A DNA stretch of 32,048 nucleotides from Bradyrhizobiaceae bacterium (GTDB lineage Bacteria > Pseudomonadota > Alphaproteobacteria > Rhizobiales > Aestuariivirgaceae). The stretch spans positions 1 to 32,048 of the forward strand of contig CANJMQ010000048.1 of the NCBI GenBank assembly GCA_947475225.1, read 5' to 3'. Below, in pieces: positions 4,843-21,919 of the stretch; position 1 is the first letter of the stretch, and each line of letters starts with the position of its first letter. The notes under the pieces are model-generated. The model did no database searches, was not told where the DNA came from, and saw only the letters and a program-made list of their open reading frames with translations. The position numbers and the translations under genes were made by a program.

Positions 4843-5328
4843 GTGAAGGCCCGCTTCCGCGACATGGCCAATCCCGCCGTGGCGCTGGCGCTGAGCTTCG
4901 GCCTGGGGCTTGCGCCATGGATGCCGGGTACCTTCGGGGCGGCCGGCGCCTTCGTGCTCTTTCCGCTGGTCATGCACCTGCCGCTGGTCCTGCAGGGCGC
5001 GCTGGCACTGGCGCTGCTCGCCCTCGGCTGCGCCGTCTGCGGCCGCGCCGCCAGAGTGCTAGGCGGCGAGGATCCCTCGGCCATCGTCTGGGACGAGACG
5101 GTGGGCATGCTGATCACGCTGGTGCTGACGCCGGCGACGCCGCTGTCCTGGCTCGTGGGCTTCCTCGCCTTCCGCGCGCTCGACATCAACAAGCCCGGGC
5201 TCATCGGCGCGGCGGAGAGGCGCCTGCGCGGCGGCACCGCCATCATGGCGGACGACGCATTGGCGGGGCTCGCTGCGGCGGCCGTCGTGTGGCTGGTCGT
5301 GGCGCTGTCGCGCCTGGTCACGGGATGA
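4843..5328 (+). CDS. pgpA: phosphatidylglycerophosphatase A family phosphatase (candidate phosphatidylinositol-phosphate phosphatase)
   Basis: The 161-residue protein shows the PgpA motifs in order: GLGLAPWMPGTFG at 20-32, DPSAIVWDE at 77-85, FRALDINKPGLI at 110-121 and AIMADDALAG at 133-142. Four hydrophobic segments fit an inner-membrane enzyme. PgpA removes the terminal phosphate of phosphatidylglycerophosphate. Here it stands beside a DUF4833 gene and a CDP-alcohol phosphatidyltransferase, with an inositol-1-phosphate synthase 9 kb away. In Bacteroides a PgpA homologue in a similar neighbourhood dephosphorylates phosphatidylinositol phosphate (from memory), so that substrate is plausible. 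GTG at 4843 is taken as the start; ATG at 4864 is an alternative and neither has a strong ribosome site. Its 3' end overlaps the convergent DUF4833 gene by 11 bases. Confidence 0.88.
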   Translation: MKARFRDMANPAVALALSFGLGLAPWMPGTFGAAGAFVLFPLVMHLPLVLQGALALALLALGCAVCGRAARVLGGEDPSAIVWDETVGMLITLVLTPATPLSWLVGFLAFRALDINKPGLIGAAERRLRGGTAIMADDALAGLAAAAVVWLVVALSRLVTG

Positions 5329-5839
5329 AGCTCTCCTTCAAGAGCTCGCCCGTGTCGAGCGCATAACCATAGAGGTCGACGCGCGTCACGCTCGGCACGC
5401 TGCCGCTCTCATCGACCTCGAGGAAGGCATGGTCGAGGCGGCACGGCTTGCCCGCCACCTTGCCCTCGAGGCGCGGCCCGCCGCCGACGATCCGCAGGAG
5501 CGCCGGCCGCTTCGGATAGGAGATGACGCGCATCATGAAGCTTCCGGGCTTGCCCGGCACGGGATCGGACGTCACGCCGAAGGCGACGTTGCGCTCAAGG
5601 CTCGAGAGTTCCTTGCGCGCGCCGTCGTCGTTGAAGCGTCGCCAGAAGACGTCGACCGGCCGCTTCGCGTCGAGCTTGCCGTCACCATCGAGGCGCGCGG
5701 TATAGACGATGGTGTTGGAATTGAGCGAGCGCTGCACATAGAAGATCAGGTTCTCGTCCACCGGCACGGGAAAGCTCTCGGCGGCGGCGGGCAGCACCGC
5801 TGCGGCAAGCAGCAAGACTGCCGCCGCGAGCCGCCTCAC
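5318..5839 (-). CDS. DUF4833-like secreted/periplasmic protein
   Basis: The 173-residue protein starts with a signal peptide (VRRLAAAVLLLAAAVLPAAAE), with likely cleavage after AAA near residue 20. The body has FYVQRSLNSNTIVYTARLDG, PVDVFWRRFNDDG and MMRVISYPKRPALL, which I recognise as the DUF4833 pattern; no function is established for it. GTG at 5839 is chosen because it overlaps the TGA of the upstream phosphatidyltransferase (GTGA) and sits exactly at the signal peptide; the frame is open further upstream but that part is antisense-like. From memory, a DUF4833 gene also lies in the Bacteroides inositol-lipid cluster between the phosphatidyltransferase and the PgpA-like phosphatase, as here. 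A role in handling the lipid in the periplasm is inference. Confidence 0.72.
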   Translation of the reverse strand: MRRLAAAVLLLAAAVLPAAAESFPVPVDENLIFYVQRSLNSNTIVYTARLDGDGKLDAKRPVDVFWRRFNDDGARKELSSLERNVAFGVTSDPVPGKPGSFMMRVISYPKRPALLRIVGGGPRLEGKVAGKPCRLDHAFLEVDESGSVPSVTRVDLYGYALDTGELLKESFIP

Positions 5840-6435
5840 GCCCGCCCCTGCAGCAGTCTCCTGGCGCGCAGGAAGCGCTGCGCGGCGGTGATGTGCGTCA
5901 GGATGGCGAGCAGCCACAGCGCCCAGGGGATCACGTCGAAACGGCCAGCCAGCAGGCTCTGGCAGACGAGCGCGAGGCAGATGAAGAAGATCCGCTCCTG
6001 GCGCTCGAACAGGTCAGGCCAGGCGACATTGTCGACCGGCATTTCCATGGCGGCGCGGGCCTTCATGTAGCTCGTCAGGAACGCGCCGGAGAGCGCGAAG
6101 TAGCCCGCCACCCAGGCATCGCTCACATAGGCCAGCGCCGCCAGCGCGATCATTTCCTGGTAGCGGTCGACGATGGCGTCGAGATAGCCGCCGAAGGCCG
6201 AGCTCTCGTTGCGCAGCCGCGCCACCGCGCCATCGAGCGAATCGGCCGAGAAGGCGATGGCCAGCGTCACCGCGAACCAGAAGGGCGCGCGGTGCCAGAC
6301 ATAGGCGAGGCTGACGAGCGCGATGAGGCCGAGCCCCATCAGCGTCACCTGGTTGGCGGTGAAGACCCGCGCCAGCGGCCGGGCCGGCACCTCCCACAGG
6401 GGGTCGATGTATTTCTTGAACAGACCGTCAATCAT
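5836..6435 (-). CDS. CDP-alcohol phosphatidyltransferase (candidate phosphatidylinositol-phosphate synthase)
   Basis: The 199-residue membrane enzyme carries the complete CDP-alcohol phosphotransferase signature D-x2-DG-x2-AR-x8-G-x3-D-x3-D, with D65, D68, G69, A72, R73, G82, D86 and D90. The four aspartates bind the metal ions. About six hydrophobic helices are visible. The family moves a phosphatidyl group from CDP-diacylglycerol to an alcohol. With inositol-1-phosphate synthase, CDP-diacylglycerol synthase and a PgpA-like phosphatase nearby, the best guess is CDP-DAG + inositol-1-phosphate to phosphatidylinositol phosphate. A phosphatidyl-polyol made with the product of the adjoining kinase is an alternative. 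ATG at 6435 lies inside the end of the kinase gene (8-base overlap), so the two are probably translationally coupled. A longer open frame to 6783 is antisense to nothing real and overlaps the kinase. Confidence 0.85.
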   Translation of the reverse strand: MIDGLFKKYIDPLWEVPARPLARVFTANQVTLMGLGLIALVSLAYVWHRAPFWFAVTLAIAFSADSLDGAVARLRNESSAFGGYLDAIVDRYQEMIALAALAYVSDAWVAGYFALSGAFLTSYMKARAAMEMPVDNVAWPDLFERQERIFFICLALVCQSLLAGRFDVIPWALWLLAILTHITAAQRFLRARRLLQGRA

Positions 6436-7963
6436 CGGTGGATCTCTCGAAGGCATCGCGGAACCACGGCGCGTTGCGCTTGTAGGCATCATGGAACAGC
6501 CTGAAGCGGCCGTCGAAATAGGCCTGCCGCGCCGCGGCCGGACGATAGACGGTTTCAGACGAGCGGTCGAAGCTCCTGGCCGCCTCCCACACGCTGGCCC
6601 GCCAGCCGAGTGCTGCGGCGGCGATGGCCGCCGCGCCGCGCACGCCCGCATTGCGCGGGTCACGCGCCACCGCAATGTCGACGCCGAGGCAATCGGCGAG
6701 CGCCTGGCACAGCGTGGCATTGAGCGCCCCGCCACCCACCGCCCGCAGGAGATGCGCATGCTTCGTGCCCTTCTGCCTGGCAACCGACTGCCAGGCCCAG
6801 CGGGTGTTGAGGGCCACGCCCTCGATCACCGCCTGGCGGAGGCTTGCCCGGCCATGCTGCAGCGACAGGCCCAGGAAGGCGCCGCGCAGCCGGTTGTCGT
6901 CGACCGGCACGCGCTCGCCTGCGAGCCACGGCAGGAACAGCGGCGGCGTGAGGCCGGACTGCGGCGGCTCCGGCTCGCTTCCCAGCATGCTATCGAGCCA
7001 GTCGAGGCAGGAGCCGGCACTTTCCTGCGTGGCGATGAGCAGCGGCCGGTTGCCGAAGGGGCTGAGGATCGTCGCATAGCCCTCGCTGGCGCTGAGGCGG
7101 CGGCCCGGATAGAAGCCGCTGATCCACGAACTGGTGCCGAGCGAGATGTGAAGCTCGCCATCCTCCACCGCCCCGCTGCCGATTGCCGCGGCGCAGACAT
7201 CGCCCGCACCGGCAAATACCGGCAGGCCCGCGGGCAGGCCAAGTTCCGCTGCCGCCGTGGCAGTGAGCCCGCCGGGCGAGGCGGTTCCCTCCACGATGTC
7301 GGGCAGCAATTCGCGTTTCAGCCCGAAGCGCTCGACCAGCGTGCCGGACCAGCCCTCCCGGCCCTTCCGCGTGTCCATCATCCAGGTGACATTGGCGAGG
7401 TCCGCCGTGGTCACTGCCTGCCCGGTGGCCCGCAGCAGCAGCCAGTCCTTGACGTCGAGCAGCTTCCACGCCCGCGCATAGACCTCGGGCTCATGCCGCT
7501 TCAGCCACAGCATCTTGGCCGGCGGGTCCATGCCATTGAGGGATGGCGCGCCATTGGTGAGGCGGATCGAGGCCATGAGCTTGAAAAGCCCATAGCCGAA
7601 GAGCTTGGGGAAGCCGCCCATCACCTCGCGCGCAATGGCGGCCGCCCGCTTGTCGAGCCAGATCATGCAGGGACGGATCGGCTGGCCCTCGCGGTCAACG
7701 GCCACGACGCCGCACATCTGAGAGGCGATCACCATGCCCGCCGCACGCGCGCGCAGGTCCGGGCAGCTGTCGGAGAGCTTGCCGAGCGCCAGCCTGAGGG
7801 CCCGCCACCAGTCGCGCGGGTCCTGCTCGGCGCAGCCGGCACCCGGATAGGACACGGGATAGGGGTGGTCTGCGCAATGGAGGACGTCGAGATCGGGCCC
7901 GATCAGCCCAACCTTGAGGCTGCTCGTGCCCACGTCCACCGCAATGATAAGATCTTGTTTCAC
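6428..7963 (-). CDS. FGGY-family carbohydrate/polyol kinase (xylulokinase-like)
   Basis: The 511-residue protein has both actin-fold halves of FGGY kinases. The first phosphate loop is AVDVGTSSLKVGLIG near residues 8-22. FAGAGDVCAAAIGSGA and LHISLGTSSWISG lie near 250-285, and the C-terminal AVGGGALNATLCQALADCLG near 390-410 matches the FGGY C-terminal motif. Length is normal for the family, which phosphorylates sugars and polyols with ATP. The exact substrate cannot be read. The 8-base overlap with the phosphatidyltransferase suggests that the phosphorylated product, a sugar alcohol or cyclitol, feeds that enzyme; this is inference. It is divergent from the Stealth gene, with 66 bp between the starts. 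Confidence 0.88.
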   Translation of the reverse strand: MKQDLIIAVDVGTSSLKVGLIGPDLDVLHCADHPYPVSYPGAGCAEQDPRDWWRALRLALGKLSDSCPDLRARAAGMVIASQMCGVVAVDREGQPIRPCMIWLDKRAAAIAREVMGGFPKLFGYGLFKLMASIRLTNGAPSLNGMDPPAKMLWLKRHEPEVYARAWKLLDVKDWLLLRATGQAVTTADLANVTWMMDTRKGREGWSGTLVERFGLKRELLPDIVEGTASPGGLTATAAAELGLPAGLPVFAGAGDVCAAAIGSGAVEDGELHISLGTSSWISGFYPGRRLSASEGYATILSPFGNRPLLIATQESAGSCLDWLDSMLGSEPEPPQSGLTPPLFLPWLAGERVPVDDNRLRGAFLGLSLQHGRASLRQAVIEGVALNTRWAWQSVARQKGTKHAHLLRAVGGGALNATLCQALADCLGVDIAVARDPRNAGVRGAAAIAAAALGWRASVWEAARSFDRSSETVYRPAAARQAYFDGRFRLFHDAYKRNAPWFRDAFERSTDD

Positions 7964-8029
7964 AATGCGCCGGAAACGAATTGAGGCTAAGCAACGGTTA
8001 TCGGGATAATCGCTGGAAGGTCAATTCAA

Positions 8030-9016
8030 TTGTCGCAATCACCGGGCGAGGCGGCTGGCGCGGCGGATGCACCCATTGATGTGGTCATCACCTGGGTCGA
8101 TGACCAGACCCCCGGATACCGCGATCTGCTGAAGGCGCACGCCAACTCCGTTCCGGACCTTGACCCCTCCCGCACGCGGGACAACCTGGAGATCTTGCGC
8201 TACGGGCTGCGCGCGCTGGAGCGACACGCCCCCTGGGTCAACCGCGTCTTCCTGTTCACCTGCCGGCCGCAGGTTCCGGCCTGGCTCCACACCGCGCACC
8301 CGCGCCTCACCGTGGTCCACCACGACGAGGTGATCCCGGCGGCACTGCTTCCCACCTTCAACTCCTTCGCCATCATCAGCCACCTGCACCTGATCCCCGG
8401 CCTGTCCGACACATTCCTCTACCTCGAGGACGACATGCTGTTCCTGAGGGACGTGAGCCTTGCGGATTTCCGCGCCCCTGACGGCAGGCCGCTGGTGTTC
8501 GAGAAGGGACCCGTGACGCCGCGCCATGACACCATCCGCAACCCGGCCGCCGAACGTCCCTGGAACCTCGCGCTGGCCGAATCGAACCAGCTCCTCGACG
8601 CAGCCTTCGGCAGCACGCAGCGCGGCTACGTGAACCACGTGCCACTCCTCATCGACAGGCCGGCATGGAAGGAAATGACGGAGCGCTTTTCGCAGGCCTT
8701 CGATGTCACCTGCCGGTCGCGCTTCCGCGCCACGGGCAACGTCGCACCGGAATATCTCTATCCGCAGCTGATGCTGGCCGAAGGCCGGGCGGTGCGGGCC
8801 AGCCCGCAACTGCTGCGCGAGAGTTGCGGGTACATTCCGCTCGAGGATTTCTGGCCGGTCACCGCCCTCGCGCTGTGGCGGGCGCGGCAACGGCAGCCGA
8901 AATGGGTGACGCTGAATGACAATTTCGGCAACAGCCCGAGCCGCATCACCGAGCGCATGGCGCGCGACTTCCTGCGCCGCGCCGGCTCTCAGCCCTCGGC
9001 CTTCGAGCGGGCGTGA
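8030..9016 (+). CDS. Stealth family sugar-phosphate transferase
   Basis: The 328-residue protein shows the four Stealth conserved regions: CR1 IDVVITWVDDQTPGYRDLL near 16-34, CR2 from RDNLEILRYGLRALERHAPW to YLEDDMLFLRD (about 50-145), CR3 NHVPLLIDRPAWKEM near 205-220, and CR4 WVTLNDNFGNSP near 290-302. Stealth proteins transfer hexose-1-phosphate from a nucleotide sugar, as in bacterial capsule polymerases and the GlcNAc-1-phosphotransferase. The start is TTG at 8030, preceded by GGAAGG nine bases upstream. The last 28 bases overlap the 3' end of the convergent GT4 gene. It could add a sugar-phosphate to the glycolipid proposed for this region; the acceptor is unknown. Confidence 0.88.
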   Translation: MSQSPGEAAGAADAPIDVVITWVDDQTPGYRDLLKAHANSVPDLDPSRTRDNLEILRYGLRALERHAPWVNRVFLFTCRPQVPAWLHTAHPRLTVVHHDEVIPAALLPTFNSFAIISHLHLIPGLSDTFLYLEDDMLFLRDVSLADFRAPDGRPLVFEKGPVTPRHDTIRNPAAERPWNLALAESNQLLDAAFGSTQRGYVNHVPLLIDRPAWKEMTERFSQAFDVTCRSRFRATGNVAPEYLYPQLMLAEGRAVRASPQLLRESCGYIPLEDFWPVTALALWRARQRQPKWVTLNDNFGNSPSRITERMARDFLRRAGSQPSAFERA

Positions 9017-10143
9017 CGGGCCATCGCGGCGCGATAGAAGTCCTCGAAGTCGCCGATCCTCCGATGCACATCAAACTGCAGCGCATGGGCGCGCCCCCAT
9101 GCCGACAGCGCTGCCCGCTCGCCCGGATCGGCCAGAAGAGCGGCAATCCGCCGCGCCAGCGCCACGCCATCGCCAGGCGGCACCAGCAGGCTCGCACCCG
9201 GCCCCGTGAGGACGGTGCGGTAGCCCGCATTGTCCGCACCGATAATGGGCGTACCGCTGGCCAGCGCCTCGGCCAGCACGATGCCGAAACTCTCGCCGTA
9301 AAGCGCTGGTGATACGGCCAGCGTCGCCTCACTCAGCAAGCGCAGCTGCTCTGCCTGCGACGGCGATGGAATGAAATCGATCCAGTCCGCACCCAGCCGC
9401 TTCTGCATCGCCAGCACGACGTCGCGCAGGTCGCCATCGCCCGCCACCACGAGGCGCGGGCGGGCCATGCCGGCGGGCAGCGCCACGGTGCCGGAGGCAA
9501 GAAGGGACGCGGCGTCGAGCAGCACCTGCACGCCCTTGCGCGGCTCCAGCCGGCCGAGGAAGAGGATGGAGGGTCGCGCCGCCGTCACCTTTTCAGTGGC
9601 GAAGAACGACGCCAGATCGGTCACCGGCGGCAGCACCACGGGCGTCACGCCGGATGCGCCGGGCCGCAAGTGGGCGCGTGGCGCGTCCGACACCGCAATC
9701 GCTCCGTCAAGGCGCTGCAGCAGGTAGCGGCTCAGCACCTTGAAGAGGTTGCGCAGCATCGTGCCCGTCACGCCGGACGGCGGCGTGTCGTGGAAGGTGG
9801 CCACCCGGGTCACATCCAGCCGGCGGAACAGCTGCCAGGGCATCAGCGGGTCCCAGGGGGTGTGGAAGTGCACCACGTCCGGCTGCCACGCGCGCAGGGC
9901 ATCCACCTTGCGGGACAGGTCATCCGCCGCGGCCCACGTCACCTCGAAGCGGGTCCCGGCGAAGGCCACGCTGCGCATGGCGCCGAGCCGCCAGACGGCG
10001 GGCTGCGCGGGGCTGGGCGCTCCGGGCGCGATGATCAGTGTGTGGTGGCCGCGCTCGCTGAGGGCAGCGTCCAGTGCATGCATGTTGCGCTGGACGCCGC
10101 CGTGGCGGTCGGGGTCATAGGGGCAGACCTGAACAATTCTCAT
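8989..10143 (-). CDS. GT4 glycosyltransferase resembling PimA
   Basis: The 384-residue GT-B enzyme opens with MRIVQVCPYDPDRHGGVQRN, close in layout to the mycobacterial phosphatidylinositol mannosyltransferase PimA (MRIGMICPYS..PGGVQ). Other shared landmarks are VVHFHTPWDPLMP, VATFHDTPP, AIAVSDAPR, ILFLGRLEPRKGVQVLL and YGESFGIVLAEALASGTPII, with the E-x7-E pair near residues 282-290. GT4 enzymes use activated sugars with retention. PimA moves mannose from GDP-mannose to the inositol of phosphatidylinositol. The likeness is from memory and many GT4 enzymes share parts of it, but an inositol-1-phosphate synthase and phosphatidyltransferase in the same region make a phosphatidylinositol acceptor reasonable. 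It is followed on the same strand, 18 bases from the stop of the oxygenase gene, so both may be one transcript. Confidence 0.85.
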   Translation of the reverse strand: MRIVQVCPYDPDRHGGVQRNMHALDAALSERGHHTLIIAPGAPSPAQPAVWRLGAMRSVAFAGTRFEVTWAAADDLSRKVDALRAWQPDVVHFHTPWDPLMPWQLFRRLDVTRVATFHDTPPSGVTGTMLRNLFKVLSRYLLQRLDGAIAVSDAPRAHLRPGASGVTPVVLPPVTDLASFFATEKVTAARPSILFLGRLEPRKGVQVLLDAASLLASGTVALPAGMARPRLVVAGDGDLRDVVLAMQKRLGADWIDFIPSPSQAEQLRLLSEATLAVSPALYGESFGIVLAEALASGTPIIGADNAGYRTVLTGPGASLLVPPGDGVALARRIAALLADPGERAALSAWGRAHALQFDVHRRIGDFEDFYRAAMARHARSKAEG

Positions 10144-10161
10144 GACCGGGGCTGGGCCGCG

Positions 10162-10914
10162 CTAGACCTTGTATTCATAGACCTTGCCCGCTTCGCGCTC
10201 GCAGTCGGGCGGGAAGCTCTTGCGCTTGTCGGCGTAGTACTGCACGCGCCAGTCGCCTTCGGAGGCGCGGTTGTAGGTGATGTAGAGAACCCGCCGCGGG
10301 TCGGACGTGTTGTTGGGCGCGGAGCGGTGCGGCGCATAGGAATCAAAGAAGATCGCGTCGCCCGGGGCGGTTGGCACGGATATGAAGTCCATGCCGCGCA
10401 TCTGCCCGGCACTCAGCGGCTTCCACAGGTCGCCGATGAGCCCGCGGTCGTGGTGGCCCGCCACCATCTCGAGGCAACCGTTCTCGAGCGTGCAGGGATC
10501 GACGCTCACCATGGCGGTGATGTGAAACGCCGAATACTTGCCCCAGTCGGCCTGGGCATCCTGGTGCGGCTCGAAGCCAGCACCTCCCGGCAGCTTGAAA
10601 TTGATCTTCTCCTTGAACAGCACCGCGTCCTCGCCAATCAGCTGCGCGCTGACGCCGCGCAGTTGGGCGCTGTCGCACAGGCGGCGGAAGCCGTCATGAT
10701 AGGGACAGAAATTCTCGATGCGCTGCAGCAGGCGGGACCCGTCACCGCGCGACGTTTCGAAATACTTCATCGCCTGCCCGGGCGTCTCGGGCCAGGCCTC
10801 CACCTCATCCGTCCAGCGGATGAGATCGGCAAGCTCCCGGCCCGTGAAAAGACCCCGCGCGACAAAATAGCCGCTGCTCCGGAACTGGTCGAAATCCTGC
10901 TGGTTCAAGTCCAT
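10162..10914 (-). CDS. phytanoyl-CoA dioxygenase (PhyH) family Fe(II)/2-oxoglutarate oxygenase
   Basis: The 250-residue protein has the non-heme iron triad of PhyH enzymes: H117-x-D119 (in FEPHQDAQADWG) and H196 (DSYAPHRSAPNN), with R207/R208 placed to bind 2-oxoglutarate. Related enzymes hydroxylate acyl chains, small amines or 2-aminoethylphosphonate (PhnY). ATG at 10914 is chosen because the protein then starts at MDLNQQDFDQFRSSGYFVAR, the normal family N-terminus; the frame is open to 11175 but that part runs across the divergent nucleotidyltransferase. It is divergent from that gene and upstream of the PimA-like gene on the same strand. The substrate is unknown; a modified head group or acyl chain of the local lipid is possible. 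Confidence 0.85.
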   Translation of the reverse strand: MDLNQQDFDQFRSSGYFVARGLFTGRELADLIRWTDEVEAWPETPGQAMKYFETSRGDGSRLLQRIENFCPYHDGFRRLCDSAQLRGVSAQLIGEDAVLFKEKINFKLPGGAGFEPHQDAQADWGKYSAFHITAMVSVDPCTLENGCLEMVAGHHDRGLIGDLWKPLSAGQMRGMDFISVPTAPGDAIFFDSYAPHRSAPNNTSDPRRVLYITYNRASEGDWRVQYYADKRKSFPPDCEREAGKVYEYKV

Positions 10915-11014: not shown

Positions 11015-11752
11015 GTGGCAATCGAGCAGGCACTGATACTGGCGGCAGGGCGCGGCGTCCGCATGGGGCCGCGCGGCCAGAACATTCCCAAGGGCTTCAT
11101 CGAGGTCGGTGGCACGCCGATCGTCGCGCGTTCGCTGTCACTCCTCGCCGCCGCAGGCATCCGTGAGGTCACCATCGTGACCGGCCATCTCGCCTCGTAC
11201 TACGATCAGTTGGCCCCGCCCGCCGGGCTTTCGCTCAGCTGCCTGCACAATCCGCTGTTTGCCGAGAAGGGCAGCTTCGAGAGCCTGCGCGTCGGCCTTG
11301 CCGCAATGACGGGCCCGTTCCTGCTGCTCGAGTCGGACATCCTCTACGAGGCCCGCGCGCTCGACGCCGTGCTTGACACGGGTCACGACGACCTGATCCT
11401 CGCCTCGGGGCCAACCGGCGCTGGCGATGAGGTCTATGTCTGGGCCGACCGCCACGAAGGCTCGCCGCGCTTTCGCGGCATGTCGAAGCAGCGCGCGGCG
11501 CACGCCGATGAACCCTTCGGCGAACTGGTCGGCATCCTGAAGATGTCGGAGCGCCTGGCGGGGGATCTCGCCGCGCACGCGGCGGAGGCGAAGCCCGACG
11601 CCGACTACGAAAGCGCCATCGTCCGCGCCGCGCGCCATCGTCCCATCACCTGCCACCGCATTGATGACCTGCTGTGGGGCGAGATCGACGACGAGGCAAT
11701 GCTGGCGCGGGTCGAGACGCATCTCTGGCCGCGCATCGTCAGCGCAGGCTGA
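11015..11752 (+). CDS. nucleotidyltransferase of the LicC/PntC (phosphocholine / aminoethylphosphonate cytidylyltransferase) sort
   Basis: The product, about 245 residues, is a sugar-nucleotidyltransferase-fold enzyme. It has the nucleotide loop LAAGRGVRM near 9-17, the catalytic lysine in PKGFIEVGG near 25-33, and FLLLESDILYE near 102-112, whose aspartate binds metal. NPLFAEKGSFESL and SGPTGAGDEVYV recall enzymes that activate phosphocholine or 2-aminoethylphosphonate with CTP (LicC, PntC). Inositol-1-phosphate cytidylyltransferase is another member of the fold, and a nucleotidyltransferase also sits in the Bacteroides inositol-lipid cluster. GTG at 11015 puts the start right at the family N-terminus; GTG 10949 or ATG 10952 would add 22 or 21 residues. 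It is convergent with the ABC transporter gene with a 10-base gap. Confidence 0.78.
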   Translation: MAIEQALILAAGRGVRMGPRGQNIPKGFIEVGGTPIVARSLSLLAAAGIREVTIVTGHLASYYDQLAPPAGLSLSCLHNPLFAEKGSFESLRVGLAAMTGPFLLLESDILYEARALDAVLDTGHDDLILASGPTGAGDEVYVWADRHEGSPRFRGMSKQRAAHADEPFGELVGILKMSERLAGDLAAHAAEAKPDADYESAIVRAARHRPITCHRIDDLLWGEIDDEAMLARVETHLWPRIVSAG

Positions 11753-11762
11753 AGCGGGAATA

Positions 11763-13439: not shown

Positions 13440-13692
13440 GTTTCTGACGCTGGCTCTGCCCCGTTCATGCGATCTTGTCCGGCGTCGTCACCTTGCCGAA
13501 TTTCGCGGCACTTGATAGACACATGTGCGGGTGCCCACAATAGCCAGTTTTTTTGAGCGATCTCCCGGGCCGCCCCTAGGCGGTCGGGGCGCCAGCCGAG
13601 GTTCGCCACGTCCGGCAATATGCCGCCGGTGCCTTGGGCTTCGACACGGCCTCCTCCCCAAGGCCTCGTTCGACGGACGTTTCGAGGCCTGA

Positions 13693-14083
13693 GGCTTCAT
13701 CGGAGAATTCGTATACGCGCTCGAAATCCACCATGCTCTCGACGTTCTGTCCGGTCGCTTCGCGGCGCATCCGATCAGCATGCAGAATGTCTACGGCAAC
13801 AACACTTTTGACGCCGGCCGCAACACCGGAATCATCACCCGGAACGCCGATGGCGCACGCATGCGGCTCATGCAGAAAAGCCAGAACCACGACGGCGAAG
13901 GCCTCCAGCCCATGTGGATCACCGAACTCACGCCGAAGCGATTCGTGGAAATACACACTATATCAATCGATTGCCTTCCCGGCATCGAAACAGGCTTCCC
14001 CCTTCGATCACGCCTCGCGAGGCGGTGATGTAATCGCTTACGACACCCGCGACCACGCCAAGTGGCTGCCCCGCTCAATCTGA
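13693..14083 (+). pseudogene. possible decayed gene upstream of ino1, not recognised
   Basis: Between the ABC transporter and ino1 lie about 850 bases without a clear gene. A plus-strand frame open from 13693 to 14028 has G/C-rich third positions and protein-like content (MQNVYGNNTFDAGRNTGIIT, MRLMQKSQNHDGEGLQPMWI). After about 14000 the coding look passes to another frame, reading FDHASRGGDVIAYDTRDHAK and ending at 14083. No clear start with a ribosome site is seen. A reverse frame over 13576-13956 is also open but its composition looks like an antisense shadow. The simplest reading is a remnant with at least one frameshift. I do not recognise its family. The stretch 13440-13692 holds only a small hairpin (CCGCC-CCTA-GGCGG at 13570) and no gene I can support. 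Confidence 0.3.
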
Positions 14084-14123
14084 AATAAATTACATGCCCC
14101 AATTGTAGTCAGCGTTTCGTCAG

Positions 14124-14276: not shown

Positions 14277-14291
14277 TTTGCGAGGGATACC

Positions 14292-15380
14292 TTGATTCGC
14301 ACGGCTATCGTGGGCGTTGGTAATTGCGCCAGTTCACTCGTTCAGGGTGTTCACTACTGCCGCGCCAAGGGCACGTCCGCCGTCGGTGTACCGTTTCCAA
14401 AACTCGGCCCTTACGTTCCGGGCGACATCGAATTCGTCGCCGCCTTCGACATTGACGGCCGCAAGGTCGGCCGGGACCTCTCGGAAGCCGTGTTCGCGGC
14501 CCCGAACTGCACCGCAGTCTTCCATTCGGACCTGCCCAGGATGAACGTCTCGGTGGGCCGTGGCCCGAGCCTCGACGGCATGACTGCCTTCCTTCACAAT
14601 CAGGCGCCGCAGCGCAGTTTCGTTCCGAGTGCCTCGCCGGAGCTTTCTGCGGCTGAAGTCGTGTCCGCCCTGAAGGCGGCGCGTACCGAAGTCGTCATCA
14701 GCTTCCTGCCCGTTGGATCGCAACAGGCGAGTGAGTTCTATGCGGGCTGCGCGCTGGAGGCGGGTGCTGCCTTCGTCAACGCCATCCCGGTGTTCCTCGC
14801 CAGCAACCCGACGTGGGCCAGCGCCTTCAAGCAGCGCGGCCTGCCGATCCTCGGCGACGACTTCAAGGCGCAGGTCGGCGCCACCATCGTCCATCGCACG
14901 CTCGCACACCTCTTCGACATGCGCGGCGCCGTGCTCGACCGGTCCTACCAGCTGAACGTCGGCGGCAACACCGACTTTCTCAACATGATGGATCACGACC
15001 GCCTGATCAGCAAGCGCGAGTCGAAGACGGAGGCCGTGCAGTCCGTCCTCGAGAACCGTCTGTCCGACGAGAATGTCCGCATCGGACCCTCCGACTACGT
15101 TCCGTGGCTCAATGACCAGAAGGTCGGCTACGTGCGCCTCGAGGGCCGGCTGCTCGGGGGCGTTCCGATGAACATGGAAGTGAGGCTCTCGGTGGAGGAC
15201 TCGCCCAATGCCGCCGCCATGGCCATGTCGGCAATCCGCTGCGCCAAGATTGCGCTCGACCGCAAGCTGTCTGGCGCCATCTGGGAGGCATCCGCCTTCC
15301 TCTTCAAGCATCCCCCGCGCCAGGTTCCCGATGACGAAGGCCACCGCCTGATCATCGACTTCGCCGAAGGCAGGCTCTGA
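14292..15380 (+). CDS. ino1: myo-inositol-1-phosphate synthase
   Basis: The 362-residue protein begins IRTAIVGVGNCASSLVQGVH, the NAD-binding loop of inositol-1-phosphate synthases of the short actinobacterial/archaeal kind. Further landmarks are EFVAAFDIDGRKVG, VVISFLPVGSQQASEFYAGC, FVNAIPVFLASNPTW, GLPILGDDFKAQVGATIVHR, LNVGGNTDFLNM and SKRESKTEAVQS; the lysines in the last two blocks are active-site residues in the family. The enzyme turns glucose-6-phosphate into inositol-1-phosphate using bound NAD. The start is TTG at 14292, with GAGGGAT about seven bases upstream. It heads a plus-strand operon with the SDR (9-base gap) and CDP-diacylglycerol synthase. Together with the phosphatidyltransferase at 5.8 kb it is the main reason to propose an inositol phospholipid pathway. 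Confidence 0.95.
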   Translation: MIRTAIVGVGNCASSLVQGVHYCRAKGTSAVGVPFPKLGPYVPGDIEFVAAFDIDGRKVGRDLSEAVFAAPNCTAVFHSDLPRMNVSVGRGPSLDGMTAFLHNQAPQRSFVPSASPELSAAEVVSALKAARTEVVISFLPVGSQQASEFYAGCALEAGAAFVNAIPVFLASNPTWASAFKQRGLPILGDDFKAQVGATIVHRTLAHLFDMRGAVLDRSYQLNVGGNTDFLNMMDHDRLISKRESKTEAVQSVLENRLSDENVRIGPSDYVPWLNDQKVGYVRLEGRLLGGVPMNMEVRLSVEDSPNAAAMAMSAIRCAKIALDRKLSGAIWEASAFLFKHPPRQVPDDEGHRLIIDFAEGRL

Positions 15381-15389
15381 CGCCCGACC

Positions 15390-16196
15390 ATGGCAGGGCA
15401 CGCAATCATCACCGGCGGCAGCAGCGGGATCGGCCTTGCAACGGCGAAGCTGTTGTCATCGCGCGGCGTCGCAGTCTCATTGATTGCCCGCAACCCACAG
15501 AAGCTCGCCGCCGCGCGCGAGGCGCTTGTCTCAGCCGGAAACGGCAAGGCCGCCGTCCAGACCTTCTCGGCCGACGTGCGCAACGCCGACGAATTGGGGC
15601 AGGCCATCACCTCGGCGAGCGAGGCCTTCGGCGCTCCCGACTGGGGTATCTCCTCGGCGGGCATCGTCATCCCGGGTATCTTCGTGAACCAGACGCTGCG
15701 CGACCACGAAGACCAGTGGCGGACCAACTACCTGGGATCGCTGCAGTTCACCCACTTCATCCTCCCCCACCTCGAAAAGGCGGCAAAGCCCAGGCTGGTG
15801 CTCATCGCCTCCGGCGCAGCGTTCGCCGGCCTCTACGGATACAGCTCCTACGGGCCAGCCAAGTTCGCGGTGCGCGGACTGGCGGAAAGCCTTCGCGTCG
15901 AACTCAAGCCGCGAAATGTCTCGGTGACGATTGCATATCCCTGCGATACCGATACGCCGCAGCTGCATGCCGAGCTGAAATTGCGCCCGAAGGTGACAAG
16001 CGAAATGGCCAAGGGCGGCGGCGTGATGAGCGCGGAGGCAGTCGCTCGGGGCATCATTGCGGCGGCGGAGCGTGGTGACTTCCAGGTAACCTTCGGCTGG
16101 CAGCTGCGCCTGCTCGCCCGCACCCACAGCCTGATTGCGCCGCTCCTCCGCAGCTACCAGGACTGGCTCGTCAGGCGGTCCGGCGACACGCCGTGA
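15390..16196 (+). CDS. SDR oxidoreductase resembling 3-ketodihydrosphingosine reductase
   Basis: The 268-residue protein is a classical SDR: cofactor loop TGGSSGIG at 8-15, N113 in NYLG, S141, and the Y154-x3-K158 pair in YGPAKFA. Three features point to the KDSR/Tsc10 branch rather than plain FabG: LIAR at 31-34 after the second strand, NYLG, and AYPCDTDTP at 182-190, where most reductases lack the DTDTP string. The length and hydrophobic C-terminal part (LLARTHSLIAPLL) also fit. That family reduces 3-ketodihydrosphingosine with NADPH. No serine palmitoyltransferase lies in the window, so it could instead be the ketoreductase of the ACP-dependent system encoded at 17-19.3 kb. It lies between ino1 and cdsA in one operon and its stop shares a base with the cdsA start. 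Confidence 0.85.
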   Translation: MAGHAIITGGSSGIGLATAKLLSSRGVAVSLIARNPQKLAAAREALVSAGNGKAAVQTFSADVRNADELGQAITSASEAFGAPDWGISSAGIVIPGIFVNQTLRDHEDQWRTNYLGSLQFTHFILPHLEKAAKPRLVLIASGAAFAGLYGYSSYGPAKFAVRGLAESLRVELKPRNVSVTIAYPCDTDTPQLHAELKLRPKVTSEMAKGGGVMSAEAVARGIIAAAERGDFQVTFGWQLRLLARTHSLIAPLLRSYQDWLVRRSGDTP

Positions 16197-17089
16197 TGCC
16201 GCAGATGACTGCGGCGCTGCTGGCGCAGGCCATCGCCACGGCCTTCGCGGCGGGGACCTGCCTTCTGCTCCTCCTCACGCTCATTCCGGCAAGCCGCTCC
16301 GTGGCTCGCCATCTCTGGCCCATCCTCGCCTCGGAGGCCGCCATCCTCGCGGCGGGGGTGCTGCCGTGGATGCTGCCGCCACTCGCCCTTCTCGCCATCC
16401 TGCTCGTCGCGGCGGGCCGCGTCGGCTTCGAGAGCGGCACCGTGCACGGATTGACGGCAGGGAGGCCATTCTCGGTGAGCCACGCCATTGCCCTCGTCGC
16501 GGTGAGCGCGCTTGCCTGGTTCTCGGGGACGGGAGCATTCCTGTGGACTGCAGGAGTGCTGCTCGCCGCGGCGTTGGCAACGACTTCCCTGAGGCCCGAC
16601 ACGTCGCTGGCGGGCAGCCTGGCGCGCTTCGCACTCTTCCCTCTGCTGCCGCTCGCCGCCTTCAGCCACGCCGCAAGCGAGCAACACCTGGCGCCCGTTC
16701 TCGTGCTTGCGTTCTTCCTCGTCGAAGTGTTCGACAGCTTCTCGCTGCTGGGCGGAAAGCTGTACGGCCGGACGCCGCTGGTGCCGCGCCTCAGTCCCCG
16801 CAAGACATGGGAGGGGCTGGCGACGGGTGGCGGAGCCCTCGCCATCGCGCTCCTCTCGCTCGTCGCCTGGCTCGGACTTCCGCTGCTGCCGATGCTTCTC
16901 GCGGGGCTCGTGGTGGTCGCCGCTGCCATCGCGGGCGACCTCCTCGGCTCGCTCGCCAAGCGACGCGCAGGCGTGAAGGACTACCCCGCCGTCATGGCCG
17001 TTCAGGGCGGGCTGCTGGACATCATCGACTCATGGCTCGTCGCCGGGCCCTGCCTCGCCGGGCTGGCGGCCCTCCTGGGATGGCTCTGA
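16196..17089 (+). CDS. cdsA: phosphatidate cytidylyltransferase (CDP-diacylglycerol synthase)
   Basis: The 297-residue integral membrane protein has about eight hydrophobic segments. Its C-terminal part holds the CdsA features: FSLLGGKLYGRTPLVPRLSP, SPRKTWEGLATGG, and GDLLGSLAKRRAGVKDYP followed by QGGLLDIIDSW, which corresponds to the signature S-x-x-K-R-x4-KD...GG-x2-D-x2-D. It makes CDP-diacylglycerol from phosphatidate and CTP, the donor for the phosphatidyltransferase at 5.8 kb. ATG at 16196 shares one base with the SDR stop (TGATG); GTG at 16193 would add one residue. Being next to ino1 it may be a second, pathway-dedicated copy. Its last 60 bases overlap the convergent MaoC-like gene. 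Confidence 0.9.
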   Translation: MPQMTAALLAQAIATAFAAGTCLLLLLTLIPASRSVARHLWPILASEAAILAAGVLPWMLPPLALLAILLVAAGRVGFESGTVHGLTAGRPFSVSHAIALVAVSALAWFSGTGAFLWTAGVLLAAALATTSLRPDTSLAGSLARFALFPLLPLAAFSHAASEQHLAPVLVLAFFLVEVFDSFSLLGGKLYGRTPLVPRLSPRKTWEGLATGGGALAIALLSLVAWLGLPLLPMLLAGLVVVAAAIAGDLLGSLAKRRAGVKDYPAVMAVQGGLLDIIDSWLVAGPCLAGLAALLGWL

Positions 17090-17464
17090 GCGCGCCACCA
17101 GCCGCGCCTCGGCGATTGCCACCAGGACGCCGCTCCCGGTCTTGGCGAGCAGCCTGAAACGAAGTCCGGCATCCGCGCCGTGGATCGGCCTCGCTGAAAT
17201 GGCAAGCGCGCTGCCGACGGGGGCTGGGCGCACGAAGCGCACCTGCAACTCGGCAATCTCATGATCGGCCACGCGCTCGAGAAATGTCTCAAAGCGGCCG
17301 GCGATGAACATGCCGTGCAGCACCGGCCCCTCGAGGCCAGCCGCGCGCGCCGCATCCCCCGAGAGGTGAATGGGATTGCTGTCACCCGAGGCGGCGGCGA
17401 AGGCCGTCACGTGTTCCGTCGTGACGGGAGGGATGAGTTCCAGCTCCGGAAGGATTGATGTCAC
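17030..17464 (-). CDS. MaoC-like (R)-hydroxyacyl dehydratase
   Basis: The 144-residue hotdog-fold protein carries the MaoC hydratase motif SGDSNPIHLSGDAARAAG near residues 25-42, with the catalytic D and H, then LEGPVLHGMFIAGRF. The family takes water from, or adds it to, hydroxyacyl/enoyl thioesters on CoA or ACP. GTG at 17464 is chosen because it overlaps the upstream stop (GTGA) and the domain starts soon after; the frame is open to 17503 inside the neighbour. Its last 60 bases run antisense to the end of cdsA, so the hydrophilic tail after about residue 124 (SEPSQEGRQPGEAGPGDEP) may be a late extension. With the adjoining hotdog protein, synthase and ACP it would complete the dehydration step of an acyl elongation cycle. 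Confidence 0.85.
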   Translation of the reverse strand: MTSILPELELIPPVTTEHVTAFAAASGDSNPIHLSGDAARAAGLEGPVLHGMFIAGRFETFLERVADHEIAELQVRFVRPAPVGSALAISARPIHGADAGLRFRLLAKTGSGVLVAIAEARLVARSEPSQEGRQPGEAGPGDEP

Positions 17465-17832
17465 GGAGCCACCAGCGCGATATCCGACGCAGACGTCAGG
17501 CACAGATGGCCGGACGGATCACTCAGGCGTTGTTCGATACGCAGGCGATCCGCGCCGGCCACAACCAGGCGAATGTCGCAGACGTAGTCTACCCCGGCCC
17601 GCAGTGGCTGCTCCGCACGGCACTCCTGTGCGACGTGAATGGGATGTCGGTTGCCGGCAATCTCCCTCACCGCCGCGAGGACAGGCTCAGACGACGCCGC
17701 GCGCAGAGCCAAGCCGAAGGGAACCCTCTCGCCCGCAGCGCCGAGGGCGCAACGGTAGGCCGCCACATCCTCCGGCGAGATGCGAAACCGGAAGGGCGCA
17801 ATGTCGACGCACTGCTCCTGGCCAGGCCTCAC
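17461..17832 (-). CDS. hotdog-fold protein, degenerate MaoC/FabZ-like dehydratase subunit
   Basis: The product, about 123 residues, reads like the partner half of a two-part MaoC dehydratase: FRFRISPEDVAAYRCALGA, VPFGLALRAASSEPVLAAVR, then NRHPIHVAQECRAEQPLRAG and a final strand pair. The H-P-I-H stretch corresponds to part of the hotdog motif, but the clear D-x-NPIH of the next gene is missing, so it may be structural. GTG at 17832 starts four bases after the ketoacyl synthase stop, with AAGG about nine bases before it; the longer open frame to 17964 only overlaps the synthase. It is coupled to the MaoC gene by GTGA. A heterodimer of the two products is inference. Confidence 0.7.
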   Translation of the reverse strand: MRPGQEQCVDIAPFRFRISPEDVAAYRCALGAAGERVPFGLALRAASSEPVLAAVREIAGNRHPIHVAQECRAEQPLRAGVDYVCDIRLVVAGADRLRIEQRLSDPSGHLCLTSASDIALVAP

Positions 17833-17836
17833 GGGG

Positions 17837-19051
17837 TCAGGCCTTGCGGATGATGAGGCTGGCGTTGATGCCGCCGAAGGCAAAGGAATTCGACATCGCC
17901 GCCGCCATGGTGACGGCGCGCGCCGCATTGGGCACGGGGTCTGGAATGCAGTCGCGGTCGGCACCCAGCCAATTGATCGTCGGCGGCGCGACGCCCTCCT
18001 GCAGAGCCCGCACCGTGATCACCAACTCGAGGGCGCCCGCCGCCCCCAGCGTGTGGCCGTGCACAGGCTTTGTGGAGGAGACCGCCAGCGTCTCGAGCCG
18101 CGCCCCAAAAATCCGCCGCAGCGCCTCGCTCTCCGAGCGGTCGTTGAGGATGGTCCCGGTGCCGTGGGCGTTGACGTAGCCGATGTCGGCGGCGTCGAGC
18201 CCGGCATCCAAGAGAGCCAACTCCATGGCGCCAGCGGCGCCCACGGCGTCGGGCCTCACGATGTCGCCCGCGTCACTCGTCGTGCCAAAGCCGGCGAGCT
18301 CGGCGTGGGGGCGCGCACCCCTCGCCCGGGCGGCATCCTCAGTCTCCAGCAGGAGCATGGCGGCGCCCTCACCGAGGCTCATGCCATCACGGCCCGCAGA
18401 GAACGGCCGGCAATCGCCGAGCGTCATCACACGCAGCGTCTCCCAGGCCCGGAAGGTGGCGGGCGTGATCAGGCACTCACTGCCGCCGACCAGCGCCCGG
18501 TCCGCCAGGCCCTGGCGCAGCAGCATCAGCCCGAGGCCAATGGCCTGGCTGGCCGAGGAGCAGGCGCTGGAGACGGCGAGCGACATGCCCCGCGCCCCGA
18601 AGGCCATGGAGAGGTGCGAGGCGGCGGCGTTGGGCATGACCTTCGGAATGGTCATGGGATCGGTCCGCTCCCGCGACTGGTAGAACTTGAAGTGCTCGAT
18701 GTCGGATGTGGTCGCTCCGCCGATGCCGCTGCCGACGAGGACCGCCGCCCGTGATCCCAGGGGTTCCGACGCGTCCCACGCGGCGTCCGCCAATGCCTCC
18801 CGCGCCGCGACGACCGCCATCTGTGCGAAGCGGTCGGTTGATCTCATGACGTCGGGGGGCAGGAGGCTCGCCGCATCGAAGTCAGAGAAGTGTGCCGCCC
18901 GCTTGACCAGCTGATTTGTGGTGCGCGGCAGGGCGAGGTCGCGGACGCCGCTTCGCCCGTCCCGTGCGGCGGCCCACAGGGCATCCACCCCAAAGCCCAG
19001 CGCGGTGACCGAACCCATGCCGGTGATGAAGACGCGCGGGCGTGAGGACAT
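17837..19051 (-). CDS. beta-ketoacyl-ACP synthase, FabF type
   Basis: The 404-residue thiolase-fold condensing enzyme has the full Cys-His-His triad: C in VSSACSSASQA near residue 164, H in NAHGTGTILND near 297 and H in KPVHGHTLGAAGA near 331. It starts VFITGMGSVTALGFG, typical of FabF. It joins malonyl-ACP to an acyl chain. ATG at 19051 shares one base with the ACP stop (TGATG), so translation is coupled to the ACP, its likely partner. With the dehydratases, the SDR and PlsC close by it looks dedicated to a special acyl product rather than housekeeping fatty-acid synthesis. A polyunsaturated or aryl-polyene-type system would need more synthases than are present. Confidence 0.92.
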   Translation of the reverse strand: MSSRPRVFITGMGSVTALGFGVDALWAAARDGRSGVRDLALPRTTNQLVKRAAHFSDFDAASLLPPDVMRSTDRFAQMAVVAAREALADAAWDASEPLGSRAAVLVGSGIGGATTSDIEHFKFYQSRERTDPMTIPKVMPNAAASHLSMAFGARGMSLAVSSACSSASQAIGLGLMLLRQGLADRALVGGSECLITPATFRAWETLRVMTLGDCRPFSAGRDGMSLGEGAAMLLLETEDAARARGARPHAELAGFGTTSDAGDIVRPDAVGAAGAMELALLDAGLDAADIGYVNAHGTGTILNDRSESEALRRIFGARLETLAVSSTKPVHGHTLGAAGALELVITVRALQEGVAPPTINWLGADRDCIPDPVPNAARAVTMAAAMSNSFAFGGINASLIIRKA

Positions 19052-19308
19052 CAGGACTGCGGTTTCACCAGGTGCGGCCGGAGTGCGGCGAGGAAGTCAC
19101 CGACGGTCTTGGCGTCAGAGAGCGACCCATCGACCGGGATGTAGGCTCCGAACTCCTCCTCCACCGCCATCAGGATGACGATGACGTCGGCCGAGGCGAT
19201 CCCGAGGCTGTCCAGCGTCGCGTCACGCGACAAACTGGAGCGGTCAATCAGCCCCTCCCGCGACACGATCGCGAGCAGCCGATCCTCGATTTCATCAGAA
19301 ACGTCCAT
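19051..19308 (-). CDS. acyl carrier protein, specialised
   Basis: The 85-residue acidic helical protein is of ACP size and pattern: helix I EIEDRLLAIVSREG, then DATLDSLGIASADVIVILMA and VEEEFGAYIPVD. Aligned by the helix II end (MAVEEEF), the phosphopantetheine serine falls in LGIASADV, so the usual D-S-L is A-S-A here, a mark of specialised carriers; the DSL a few residues earlier is probably not the attachment site. ATG at 19308 is chosen as the normal family start. The gene lies 111 bases after plsC and is coupled to the ketoacyl synthase. Such stand-alone ACPs serve sphingolipid, lipid A or hopanoid-like pathways in alphaproteobacteria; which applies here is not known. Confidence 0.85.
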   Translation of the reverse strand: MDVSDEIEDRLLAIVSREGLIDRSSLSRDATLDSLGIASADVIVILMAVEEEFGAYIPVDGSLSDAKTVGDFLAALRPHLVKPQS

Positions 19309-19419
19309 GCGAAGCGGAAAACCCCGGCAAGTGAAGAAGTTGGGAGGACGGCAATCTAGAAAGATGGGGTTCAACTGTCTATAGATCTTTACCAAAATGG
19401 ACCCCTTGGCCGTCGCCGA

Positions 19420-20172
19420 TCAGGGGGGCAGCTGGAGGAGCCTCGCCGTGGCCTCCTCGATGTCACCCTGGAGCCGTTCCCCGAAGGCGGCACGTGGCAT
19501 GCCGGGCTCGATGGGGGGTAAGAACTCGACCATGATGACGCCCGCACCCGGGGTAAGCGCCTTCGCCGGCCAGACCCTCCCGGAGTTGACCGCCACCGGT
19601 ATACAGGGCGCCTTCAGAACCGCGTAGAGCAACTCCACCCCTGCCTTGTAGTCCGGGGGAGCACCGACCTCTCGCCGCGAGCCCTCCGGGAAGATCAACA
19701 CCGGCCGCCCCTCCTCAAGTGCTTGCCGCGCAGCCGCCAGGAGCTGGCGCGCGGCATCGAGGTCACCCGACCGGTCGACCCCGATGTGGCCCAGGCGCCG
19801 CAATACCAAGCCGAAGAGGGGGATCGAGAGCAATTCCCGCTTCAGGATGATGGCGGGGTCACCGAGCTCATATTGCAGAATGAGCGTCTCGAACCCCGAC
19901 TGGTGCTTCGCGGCGACGAGAACCGGCCCCCTGGCGGCTGACAGATCTCCCAAAATGTCCCACCGGAGCCAGAAGATCTTCCGGAGGAGCCAGAGCACGA
20001 TGGCGAGGTAGGACCGTACGATTGCGCGCACACACCGCCGGGGGAGGAGAATTGCTGGAAGGAGAAGAGCATAGCTGGCGGTGAGCAACGACACCGAGGT
20101 CCAGAAAACTATAAGTCTTGGCAGATGCAATCGGGGTCCACATCCGGCGGCCGCTTGGTCAGGAATCGCCAT
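19420..20172 (-). CDS. plsC: 1-acyl-sn-glycerol-3-phosphate acyltransferase (PlsC family)
   Basis: The 250-residue membrane-bound acyltransferase has the first block as KHQSGFETL near residue 88-96 (H-x4-E in place of the usual H-x4-D), then GHIGVDRSGD, the third block LIFPEGSRR near 158-166 and a KAGVELL helix. One or two hydrophobic helices precede the catalytic part (IVFWTSVSLLTASYALLLPA). The family moves an acyl chain from acyl-ACP or acyl-CoA to lysophosphatidate, giving phosphatidate for CdsA. The E in place of D is found in some family members. It heads a minus-strand unit with the ACP, synthase and dehydratases, so those enzymes may supply its acyl donor. It is the last GC-rich gene before the IS junction. 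Confidence 0.9.
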   Translation of the reverse strand: MAIPDQAAAGCGPRLHLPRLIVFWTSVSLLTASYALLLPAILLPRRCVRAIVRSYLAIVLWLLRKIFWLRWDILGDLSAARGPVLVAAKHQSGFETLILQYELGDPAIILKRELLSIPLFGLVLRRLGHIGVDRSGDLDAARQLLAAARQALEEGRPVLIFPEGSRREVGAPPDYKAGVELLYAVLKAPCIPVAVNSGRVWPAKALTPGAGVIMVEFLPPIEPGMPRAAFGERLQGDIEEATARLLQLPP

Positions 20173-21912: not shown

Positions 21913-21919
21913 CTTGACA

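Follow-up and report, generated by a model that had tools for sequence, protein, structure and literature searches.

A candidate cluster for synthesis and export of an inositol-phosphate lipid, probably a sphingolipid, in a member of the Rhizobiales

The window analysed here is the whole 32,048-nucleotide stretch of contig CANJMQ010000048.1 (C48). It belongs to the draft genome of a Bradyrhizobiaceae bacterium (Aestuariivirgaceae), 4.1 Mb in size and 88% complete. Positions 4843-20172 hold a cluster of 17 genes, 16 of them with a Pfam match, which ends with a PlsC-type acyltransferase gene at 20172. The cluster includes genes for a myo-inositol-phosphate synthase (MIPS), for a CDP-alcohol phosphotransferase resembling phosphatidylinositol-phosphate (PIP) synthases and for a DUF4833 protein. 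From the gene content and its conservation we consider it reasonably probable that the product made and exported here is an inositol-phosphate sphingolipid, and probably a glycosylated one. The features are listed below.

3538..4377, minus strand: Frag1/DRAM/Sfk1 membrane protein (PF10277, 51 bits), outside 4843-20172
4843..5328, plus strand: PgpA-type phosphatase (PF04608, 120 bits, cut-off 28)
5318..5839, minus strand: DUF4833 protein (PF16117, 102 bits, cut-off 23), N-terminal signal by eye
5836..6435, minus strand: PIP-synthase-like CDP-alcohol phosphotransferase (PF01066, 51 bits, cut-off 22)
6428..7963, minus strand: FGGY-family sugar/polyol kinase (PF00370/PF02782)
8030..9016, plus strand: Stealth-family transferase (Stealth_CR2 107 bits, CR3 32 bits; CR1 below cut-off)
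8989..10143, minus strand: GT4 glycosyltransferase (PF00534/PF13439)
10162..10914, minus strand: PhyH-family oxygenase (PF05721, 79 bits)
11015..11752, plus strand: nucleotidyltransferase (NTP transferase)
11763..13439, minus strand: ABC exporter with fused membrane and ATPase domains (PF00664/PF00005)
~13580..14062, plus strand: decayed GINT1-like glycosyltransferase gene, a relic (tblastn pieces)
14292..15380, plus strand: MIPS of the mycothiol INO1 type (PF01658, 118 bits, cut-off 27)
15390..16196, plus strand: short-chain dehydrogenase/reductase (SDR; PF00106)
16193..17089, plus strand: CdsA paralogue (PF01148, CTP_transf_1, 97 bits, cut-off 24)
17030..17503, minus strand: MaoC-type dehydratase (PF01575, 54 bits)
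17461..17814, minus strand: small protein without a Pfam match, by eye a partner hot-dog dehydratase subunit
17837..19051, minus strand: FabF-like ketoacyl-ACP synthase (KAS; PF00109/PF02801) with the Cys and two His motifs present
19051..19308, minus strand: acyl carrier protein (ACP) with a DSL motif (PF00550, 26-27 bits, cut-off 21)
19420..20172, minus strand: PlsC-type acyltransferase (PF01553, 64 bits)

Pfam confirmed the genes named in the initial annotation of this DNA, and the nucleotidyltransferase at 11015..11752 corresponds to its cytidylyltransferase-like enzyme. The FGGY kinase (6428-7963), the SDR (15390-16196) and the GINT1-like relic (~13580-14062) had been left out. The description of the GT4 protein as PimA-like did not hold: its best NCBIfam match is MshA at 61 bits (cut-off 462), and no PimA model is among the matches listed. 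The best NCBIfam model for MIPS is TIGR03450 (412 bits, cut-off 638) and its best solved relative is 1gr0 (E 8e-114), while its closest matches come from a metagenome-assembled genome (MAG) labelled Rhizobium sp. Q54 (93%) and from Aestuariivirga litoralis (91%). In a genome search, the PgpA gene at 4843..5328 was the sole PgpA found. We propose that it encodes a phosphatidylinositol-phosphate or inositol-phosphoceramide-phosphate phosphatase; its Bacteroides homologue, BT_1525, carries out the phosphatidylinositol-phosphate phosphatase step (excerpt of PMC9246714).

No other single finding argues as strongly for an inositol-phosphate head group as the predicted substrate pocket of the phosphotransferase. 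This protein carries the CDP-alcohol motif D-x2-D-G-x2-A-R...G-x3-D-x3-D, seen as DSLDGAVAR...GGYLDAIVD, in agreement with the intact site named in the initial annotation. In Mycobacterium tuberculosis PgsA1, residues R94, S132, Y133, K135, R137, R152, R155 and R195 surround the inositol-phosphate site, and R94 is conserved among enzymes that use inositol phosphate (excerpt of PMC6506517). All eight residues are identical in the window phosphotransferase (phmmer alignment to 6h53, PgsA1 numbering). The genome encodes seven CDP-alcohol enzymes, and the other six have K, K, F, I, F and F at the R94 position. One of these six is a PgsA above cut-off, three, ClsA/PgsA-, phosphatidylserine (PS)-synthase- and phosphatidylcholine-synthase-like, are below cut-off, and two are unassigned. 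When the window enzyme was checked against an identity as phosphatidylglycerophosphate or PS synthase it proved to be neither, since likely synthases of both kinds lie elsewhere in the genome and it keeps the inositol-phosphate pocket. The R94-equivalent arginine, which follows the fourth Asp, is present in the cluster enzyme of all 19 DUF4833-bearing genomes in which the enzyme was found, namely those of the window, L067, L069, L070 and L132, five of f41 and nine of f20 (L numbers denote the 26 loci collected by a MIPS search, f numbers families of relatives). It is also present in the cluster enzymes of L012, L013, L031 and L032. The pocket kept in the window enzyme and the arginine missing from the six paralogues make an inositol-phosphate head group very likely; inositol phosphate is very probably transferred to a membrane lipid by the enzymes of this locus.

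A survey of 249 genomes of the order found DUF4833 in 25 and MIPS in 55. The two occur together in 22 of the 25 DUF4833 genomes (Fisher p 1e-13, a value that ignores relatedness). Gene families were tallied by tblastn in stretches of 16 to 40 kb from the 25 DUF4833 genomes, giving MIPS in 21, LptF/G in 19, PIP synthase in 19, PgpA in 18, serine palmitoyltransferase (SPT) or another α-oxoamine synthase (AOS) in 16, a ceramide-synthase-like acyltransferase in 12, the CdsA paralogue in 12, the FGGY kinase in 10, Stealth in 10, an AUR1-like PAP2 protein in 9 and the NTP transferase in 9. Absences in this tally are soft because the stretches vary in length and centre, and SDR and KAS matches below ~32% identity may belong to other, unrelated members of these families. 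Close relatives retain the blocks MIPS-SDR-CdsA, PgpA-DUF4833, PIP synthase-FGGY-Stealth-GT4, ABC and KAS-ACP-MaoC, up to contig ends, and other MIPS loci, such as those of Sphingomonas, retain little except MIPS. The FGGY kinase gene adjoins the PIP synthase gene in f1, f27 and f41, and the small protein at 17461..17814 is conserved between KAS and MaoC in L008, L009, L029, L122 and L125. Among the 25 stretches the PhyH oxygenase is confined to three, all from the four DUF4833 genomes of the window's genus; PlsC was found only in three stretches of that genus, with weaker relatives in L013 and L014. As the initial annotation had proposed, gene neighbourhoods were compared across relatives, and the genes travel together. 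Their shared location in relatives of several families shows that the cluster is not a chance assembly. The window's genus is itself patchy: two genomes assigned to it (G104 and G228) matched neither MIPS nor DUF4833, and in G186 MIPS was found but DUF4833 was not.

Which lipid receives the head group is suggested by these neighbourhoods. An SPT-like AOS gene adjoins DUF4833 and MIPS in all six f41 genomes. In f20, taken to be Phreatobacter, the clusters contain the acyltransferase and LptF/G in 9/9 stretches and SPT in 6/9, and this SPT is 42-46% identical to the SPT of the window's genome. Four DUF4833 stretches are without MIPS (G205, G049, G086 and G006); each holds at least one sphingolipid-type gene, with SPT/AOS in three, the acyltransferase in three and LptF/G in two. 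DUF4833 therefore seems to be a marker of sphingolipid loci, and MIPS seems to be a head-group module added to some of them. A ceramide locus is also present in the window's genome, on contig C29, where SPT (E 3e-132 to a solved SPT) neighbours CerR-like, AasR-like, diacylglycerol-kinase (DAGK)-type kinase and LptF/G-like genes, and where the acyltransferase is 38% identical to that of Phreatobacter. The four members of the Caulobacter-type ceramide set that were looked for, SPT, CerR, AasR and ceramide acyltransferase, all have counterparts in the genome, and the gene content of C29 resembles the Caulobacter phosphosphingolipid region (excerpt of PMC11324152) and a Roseomonas plasmid. Within the window, the SDR has TSC10 (8jat, E 5e-28) as its best solved relative and matches only generic SDR models in NCBIfam, none above cut-off; we propose that it may be a 3-ketosphinganine-reductase-like enzyme.

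The initial annotation had instead read the cluster as a route from phosphatidate to glycosylated phosphatidylinositol. Its inositol-lipid synthesis and export locus stood; its diacylglycerol (DAG) product is less likely, since the neighbourhoods point to a sphingolipid acceptor. In the phosphatidylinositol account the CdsA paralogue would give CDP-DAG, the PIP synthase and PgpA would act on it, GT4 and Stealth would follow, and SPT would serve another lipid. CdsA, PIP synthase and PgpA suffice for this, PlsC and the acyl-chain block adjoin, no AUR1-like enzyme was found in the window's genome, and the SPT of that genome is on another contig. However, SPT/AOS, LptF/G and ceramide-synthase-like genes share the cluster in other families, sphingolipid genes persist in the DUF4833 loci that have no MIPS, and the CdsA paralogue is without the usual signature. 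We regard phosphatidylinositol as an unlikely product and favour a glycosylated inositol phosphosphingolipid.

The C-terminal signature of CdsA in PROSITE is K-R-x4-K-D...H-G-G-x2-D-R. HGG..DR is also present in 4q2g and in a second, stronger CdsA encoded elsewhere in the genome (contig C20), whereas QGG..D[I/V] replaces it in all 15 distinct motifs of the paralogue. No match to the paralogue was found on plasmids. We propose that it is a CDP-lipid synthase, perhaps one that makes CDP-ceramide. The idea that the window CdsA is the orthologue of Caulobacter CC_1161 was rejected, as the gene that occupies the CC_1161 position in Roseomonas has no similarity to CdsA; that gene has no Pfam match, and its likeness to Tam41 is by eye alone.

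In Bacteroides, the inositol phosphorylceramide step is carried out by the AUR1-like BT_1522 (PMC9246714, as excerpted). Among the 25 stretches, the CdsA paralogue (12) and AUR1-like PAP2 (9) are mutually exclusive. In whole-genome searches AUR1-like PAP2 was found in 9/9 f20 genomes (one match with an internal stop) and in 0/11 genomes of f1, f41 and f27, all 11 of which carry the CdsA paralogue. A PAP2_3 protein adjoins MIPS in L028, L031 and L032. In L031 and L032, both Rhizobiales MAGs, a fatty-acid desaturase gene with the sphingolipid Delta4-desaturase domain PF08557 (L031:7276-8232; the L032:11156 copy by tblastn) adjoins MIPS and the AUR1-like PAP2 gene.

One mechanism by which an inositol phosphosphingolipid could arise in the window's genome is that the CdsA paralogue activates ceramide-1-phosphate supplied by the C29 kinase. 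The PIP-synthase-like enzyme would then transfer phosphoceramide to inositol phosphate and PgpA would finish inositol phosphoceramide, with no AUR1-type step. Such a route would explain both the absence of an AUR1-like enzyme and the altered CdsA signature. Ceramide-1-phosphate is the obvious candidate substrate because the kinase gene, whose product is 27% identical to the kinase of the Roseomonas SPT locus, adjoins SPT, and an NDP-activated ceramide has been suggested for Caulobacter on other grounds (excerpt of PMC11324152). On the other hand, the term CDP-ceramide was not found in the open-licence literature, which lends no support. The PAP2/CdsA split may reflect one or few events because it follows families. 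The kinase gene is in 0/25 stretches, the other paralogue-bearing genomes having been searched within their stretches, and the gene found at the CC_1161 position in Roseomonas is unlike the window CdsA. We put CDP-ceramide forward tentatively, as one way in which the favoured sphingolipid might be made.

The NTP transferase has 6pd1, presumably PntC, as its best solved relative (E 7e-43), followed by the CTP:phosphocholine cytidylyltransferase 1jyk (E 5e-10), and is probably a cytidylyltransferase. A phosphonate head group, considered in view of 6pd1, was set aside; the genome gave no match to phosphoenolpyruvate (PEP) mutase, so that the organism is unlikely to make a phosphonate itself. The NTP transferase gene of f41 and L012 adjoins that of a third type of CDP-alcohol enzyme, a relative of which lies on contig C102 of the window's genome, and the two enzymes may decorate the head group with a phospho-alcohol. 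Alternatively, the NTP transferase could make CDP-inositol, from which a CDP-alcohol enzyme would move phosphoinositol to DAG or ceramide. Such a route, as for Prevotella and B. vulgatus, was proposed for an alternative Bacteroidetes cluster (PMC9246714, as excerpted), and the NTP transferase has both IPCT and phosphocholine cytidylyltransferase among its relatives. Yet the gene is missing from the MIPS-keeping stretches of G135, f27, f37 and f20, its neighbour in f41 and L012 encodes another CDP-alcohol enzyme, and the window phosphotransferase keeps its inositol-phosphate pocket. The NTP component of the alternative cluster is present, but its HAD component is unmatched among the 20 window proteins scanned. 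We consider a CDP-inositol route very improbable for this locus.

A separate observation concerns two Sphingomonas genomes, in which a CDP-alcohol enzyme, MIPS and an NTP transferase are encoded in a tight operon (L023:9252-11825 and L030:9246-11781). The best NCBIfam match of the NTP protein is the first part of the archaeal inositol-1-phosphate cytidylyltransferase fusion model, at 84-87 bits, far below cut-off. This operon could represent a CDP-inositol route and could bear on the Novosphingobium lipid considered below.

For the favoured inositol phosphosphingolipid, the cluster would work as follows. MIPS would convert glucose-6-phosphate into inositol-3-phosphate. Once the PIP-synthase-like enzyme had joined inositol-3-phosphate to a CDP-activated lipid, the extra phosphate would be taken off by the PgpA-type enzyme. 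Ceramide, the presumed acceptor, would be supplied by the Caulobacter-type locus on C29, and the ketosynthase, ACP and dehydratase block would provide a special acyl chain. The GT4, Stealth, nucleotidyltransferase and oxygenase proteins would decorate the product: GT4 and Stealth are candidates for head-group glycosylation or other decoration, and the PhyH oxygenase is a possible chain hydroxylase. The ABC exporter, a proposed lipid flippase, would act in outward transport with the LptF/G-type permeases and the periplasmic DUF4833 protein.

We propose that DUF4833 is a periplasmic partner of sphingolipid export. It travels with SPT/AOS, LptF/G and MIPS among the 25 stretches, and in f20 its signal is twin-arginine-like (by eye). 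An AF2 model (nine sequences) has a pLDDT of 92 and is mostly beta; it gave no fold match in the PDB at E<=0.001, and no paper on DUF4833 was found in the open-licence literature.

Head-group glycosylation is also touched on by the GINT1-like relic between the ABC exporter and MIPS, which survives as fragments in two frames, its central part being absent. The gene is open in L008, L009, L010 and L029 (Pfam GINT1_N on the L029 copy), and GINT1_N has no match in the window's genome. As GINT1_N is common in the order, in 65 of the 249 genomes, nine of them with DUF4833, it is weak evidence; with the window copy a relic, GINT1 was dropped as a strong argument for glycosylation of inositol phosphoceramide. 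In L028 and L125 the cluster is adjoined by a glycosyltransferase of PF04488, the family of yeast SUR1, which mannosylates inositol phosphorylceramide.

Several points weigh against a sphingolipid product. Every lipid claim is read from genes, and the genome is 88% complete. Gene identities, the pocket, the conserved neighbourhood and the presence of an SPT gene stand on sequence comparison. The phosphotransferase is inositol-like yet falls outside the curated families, because it scores 120 bits against the archaetidylinositol phosphate synthase model of NCBIfam (cut-off 180) and 79 bits against PIPSynth (cut-off 170), below both equivalog cut-offs. Its two unassigned paralogues also have archaetidylinositol phosphate synthase as their best match, though more weakly, at 41 and 61 bits. 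The 25 DUF4833 genomes represent eight families, two of which supply 15. SPT was found in none of the four stretches from DUF4833 genomes of the window's genus, so that the ceramide link in this genus rests on relatives, and the AOS of L013, the one f41-type enzyme tested, is about equally near KBL and SPT. A tree of 12 AOS sequences had very long branches and was set aside. The SDR belongs to a broad family, with matches in f20, f16 and f49 only 27-32% identical, and a ketosphinganine-reductase role would be redundant because a CerR-like reductase is encoded on C29. Finally, the 88% of the window's genome that is available yielded no AUR1-like enzyme: one PAP2_3 match was below cut-off, and none was obtained with a Rhizobiales PAP2_3 query.

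Outside the cluster, the Frag1/DRAM/Sfk1 gene also adjoins it in some f1, f27 and f41 genomes and occurs in 5/25 stretches. Upstream, window positions 1-3541 encode two adjacent tetratricopeptide-repeat (TPR)-type proteins (the first by eye), the second of which (1565-3541) has a sulfotransferase domain at its C-terminus. Beyond 20 kb the G+C content drops from ~65% to ~50%. This part of the window (20200-32048) contains transposase-like frames at 20986-21683 and 31540-31851 (by eye), with polysaccharide-type genes between them, including one for a 1454-aa multi-domain protein (by eye), and represents an island acquired from elsewhere or else a join made in assembly.

Inositol lipids are uncommon among bacteria. 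The suggestion in the initial annotation that such a set is undescribed in proteobacteria nearly holds, except that an inositol-phosphoceramide-like lipid was seen in Novosphingobium acidiphilum with no genes assigned to it (excerpt of PMC9246714); no description of the present locus was found in the open-licence literature. PMC11334938 does not mention inositol, and excerpts of PMC10331486, PMC9386255 and PMC6445935 yielded nothing on the subject. A conserved alphaproteobacterial locus makes the question of the genes open to genetics in cultured strains. The locus gives DUF4833 its first functional context, and the CdsA subfamily may activate a lipid other than phosphatidate. The distribution of PAP2 and CdsA suggests two alternative ways to the same head group in one order, by a PAP2 transferase or by a CDP-lipid. 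If CDP-ceramide is indeed used, it would replace the AUR1-type transferase of known inositol phosphoceramide makers and CdsA would have been neofunctionalised; likewise, DUF4833 would be a new periplasmic part of sphingolipid export. Sphingolipids of the type proposed here are otherwise known from fungi, plants and gut Bacteroides, and in this bacterium the route to them may be one not yet described.

Known systems with which the locus can be compared include the mycobacterial mannoside pathway, and inositol phosphorylceramide and its glycosides in fungi and plants. The proposed product is like the fungal and plant lipid, and there is a TSC10-like reductase and, in relatives, a GINT1-like gene, but most steps would use other enzyme families. 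With the mycobacterial PgsA1 system the locus shares the eight pocket residues (PMC6506517, as excerpted), the MIPS type and a GT4 enzyme. It differs in that the window enzyme is below the PIP-synthase cut-off, the GT4 is not recognised as PimA, and the organism is Gram-negative with sphingolipid genes. Caulobacter crescentus CC_1152-CC_1168 has in common with C29 the SPT, CerR-, AasR-, acyltransferase-, ceramide-kinase- and second LptF/LptG-like genes (excerpt of PMC11324152), but its head group is phosphoglycerate, and the word inositol is absent from that paper. The B. thetaiotaomicron cluster BT_1522-BT_1526 likewise groups MIPS with a PgpA-type phosphatase and a CDP-alcohol PIP synthase, and its host uses SPT to make sphingolipid as well (PMC9246714, as excerpted). 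The two differ in phylum, and the window MIPS is nearest to the mycothiol INO1 model; no AUR1-like gene was found in the window's genome, which has in addition the CdsA paralogue, the FGGY kinase, DUF4833 and the decoration and export genes. Together, these comparisons make the kinship to Bacteroides inositol-lipid synthesis clear, while the proteobacterial version, the link to DUF4833 and the CdsA subfamily look new.

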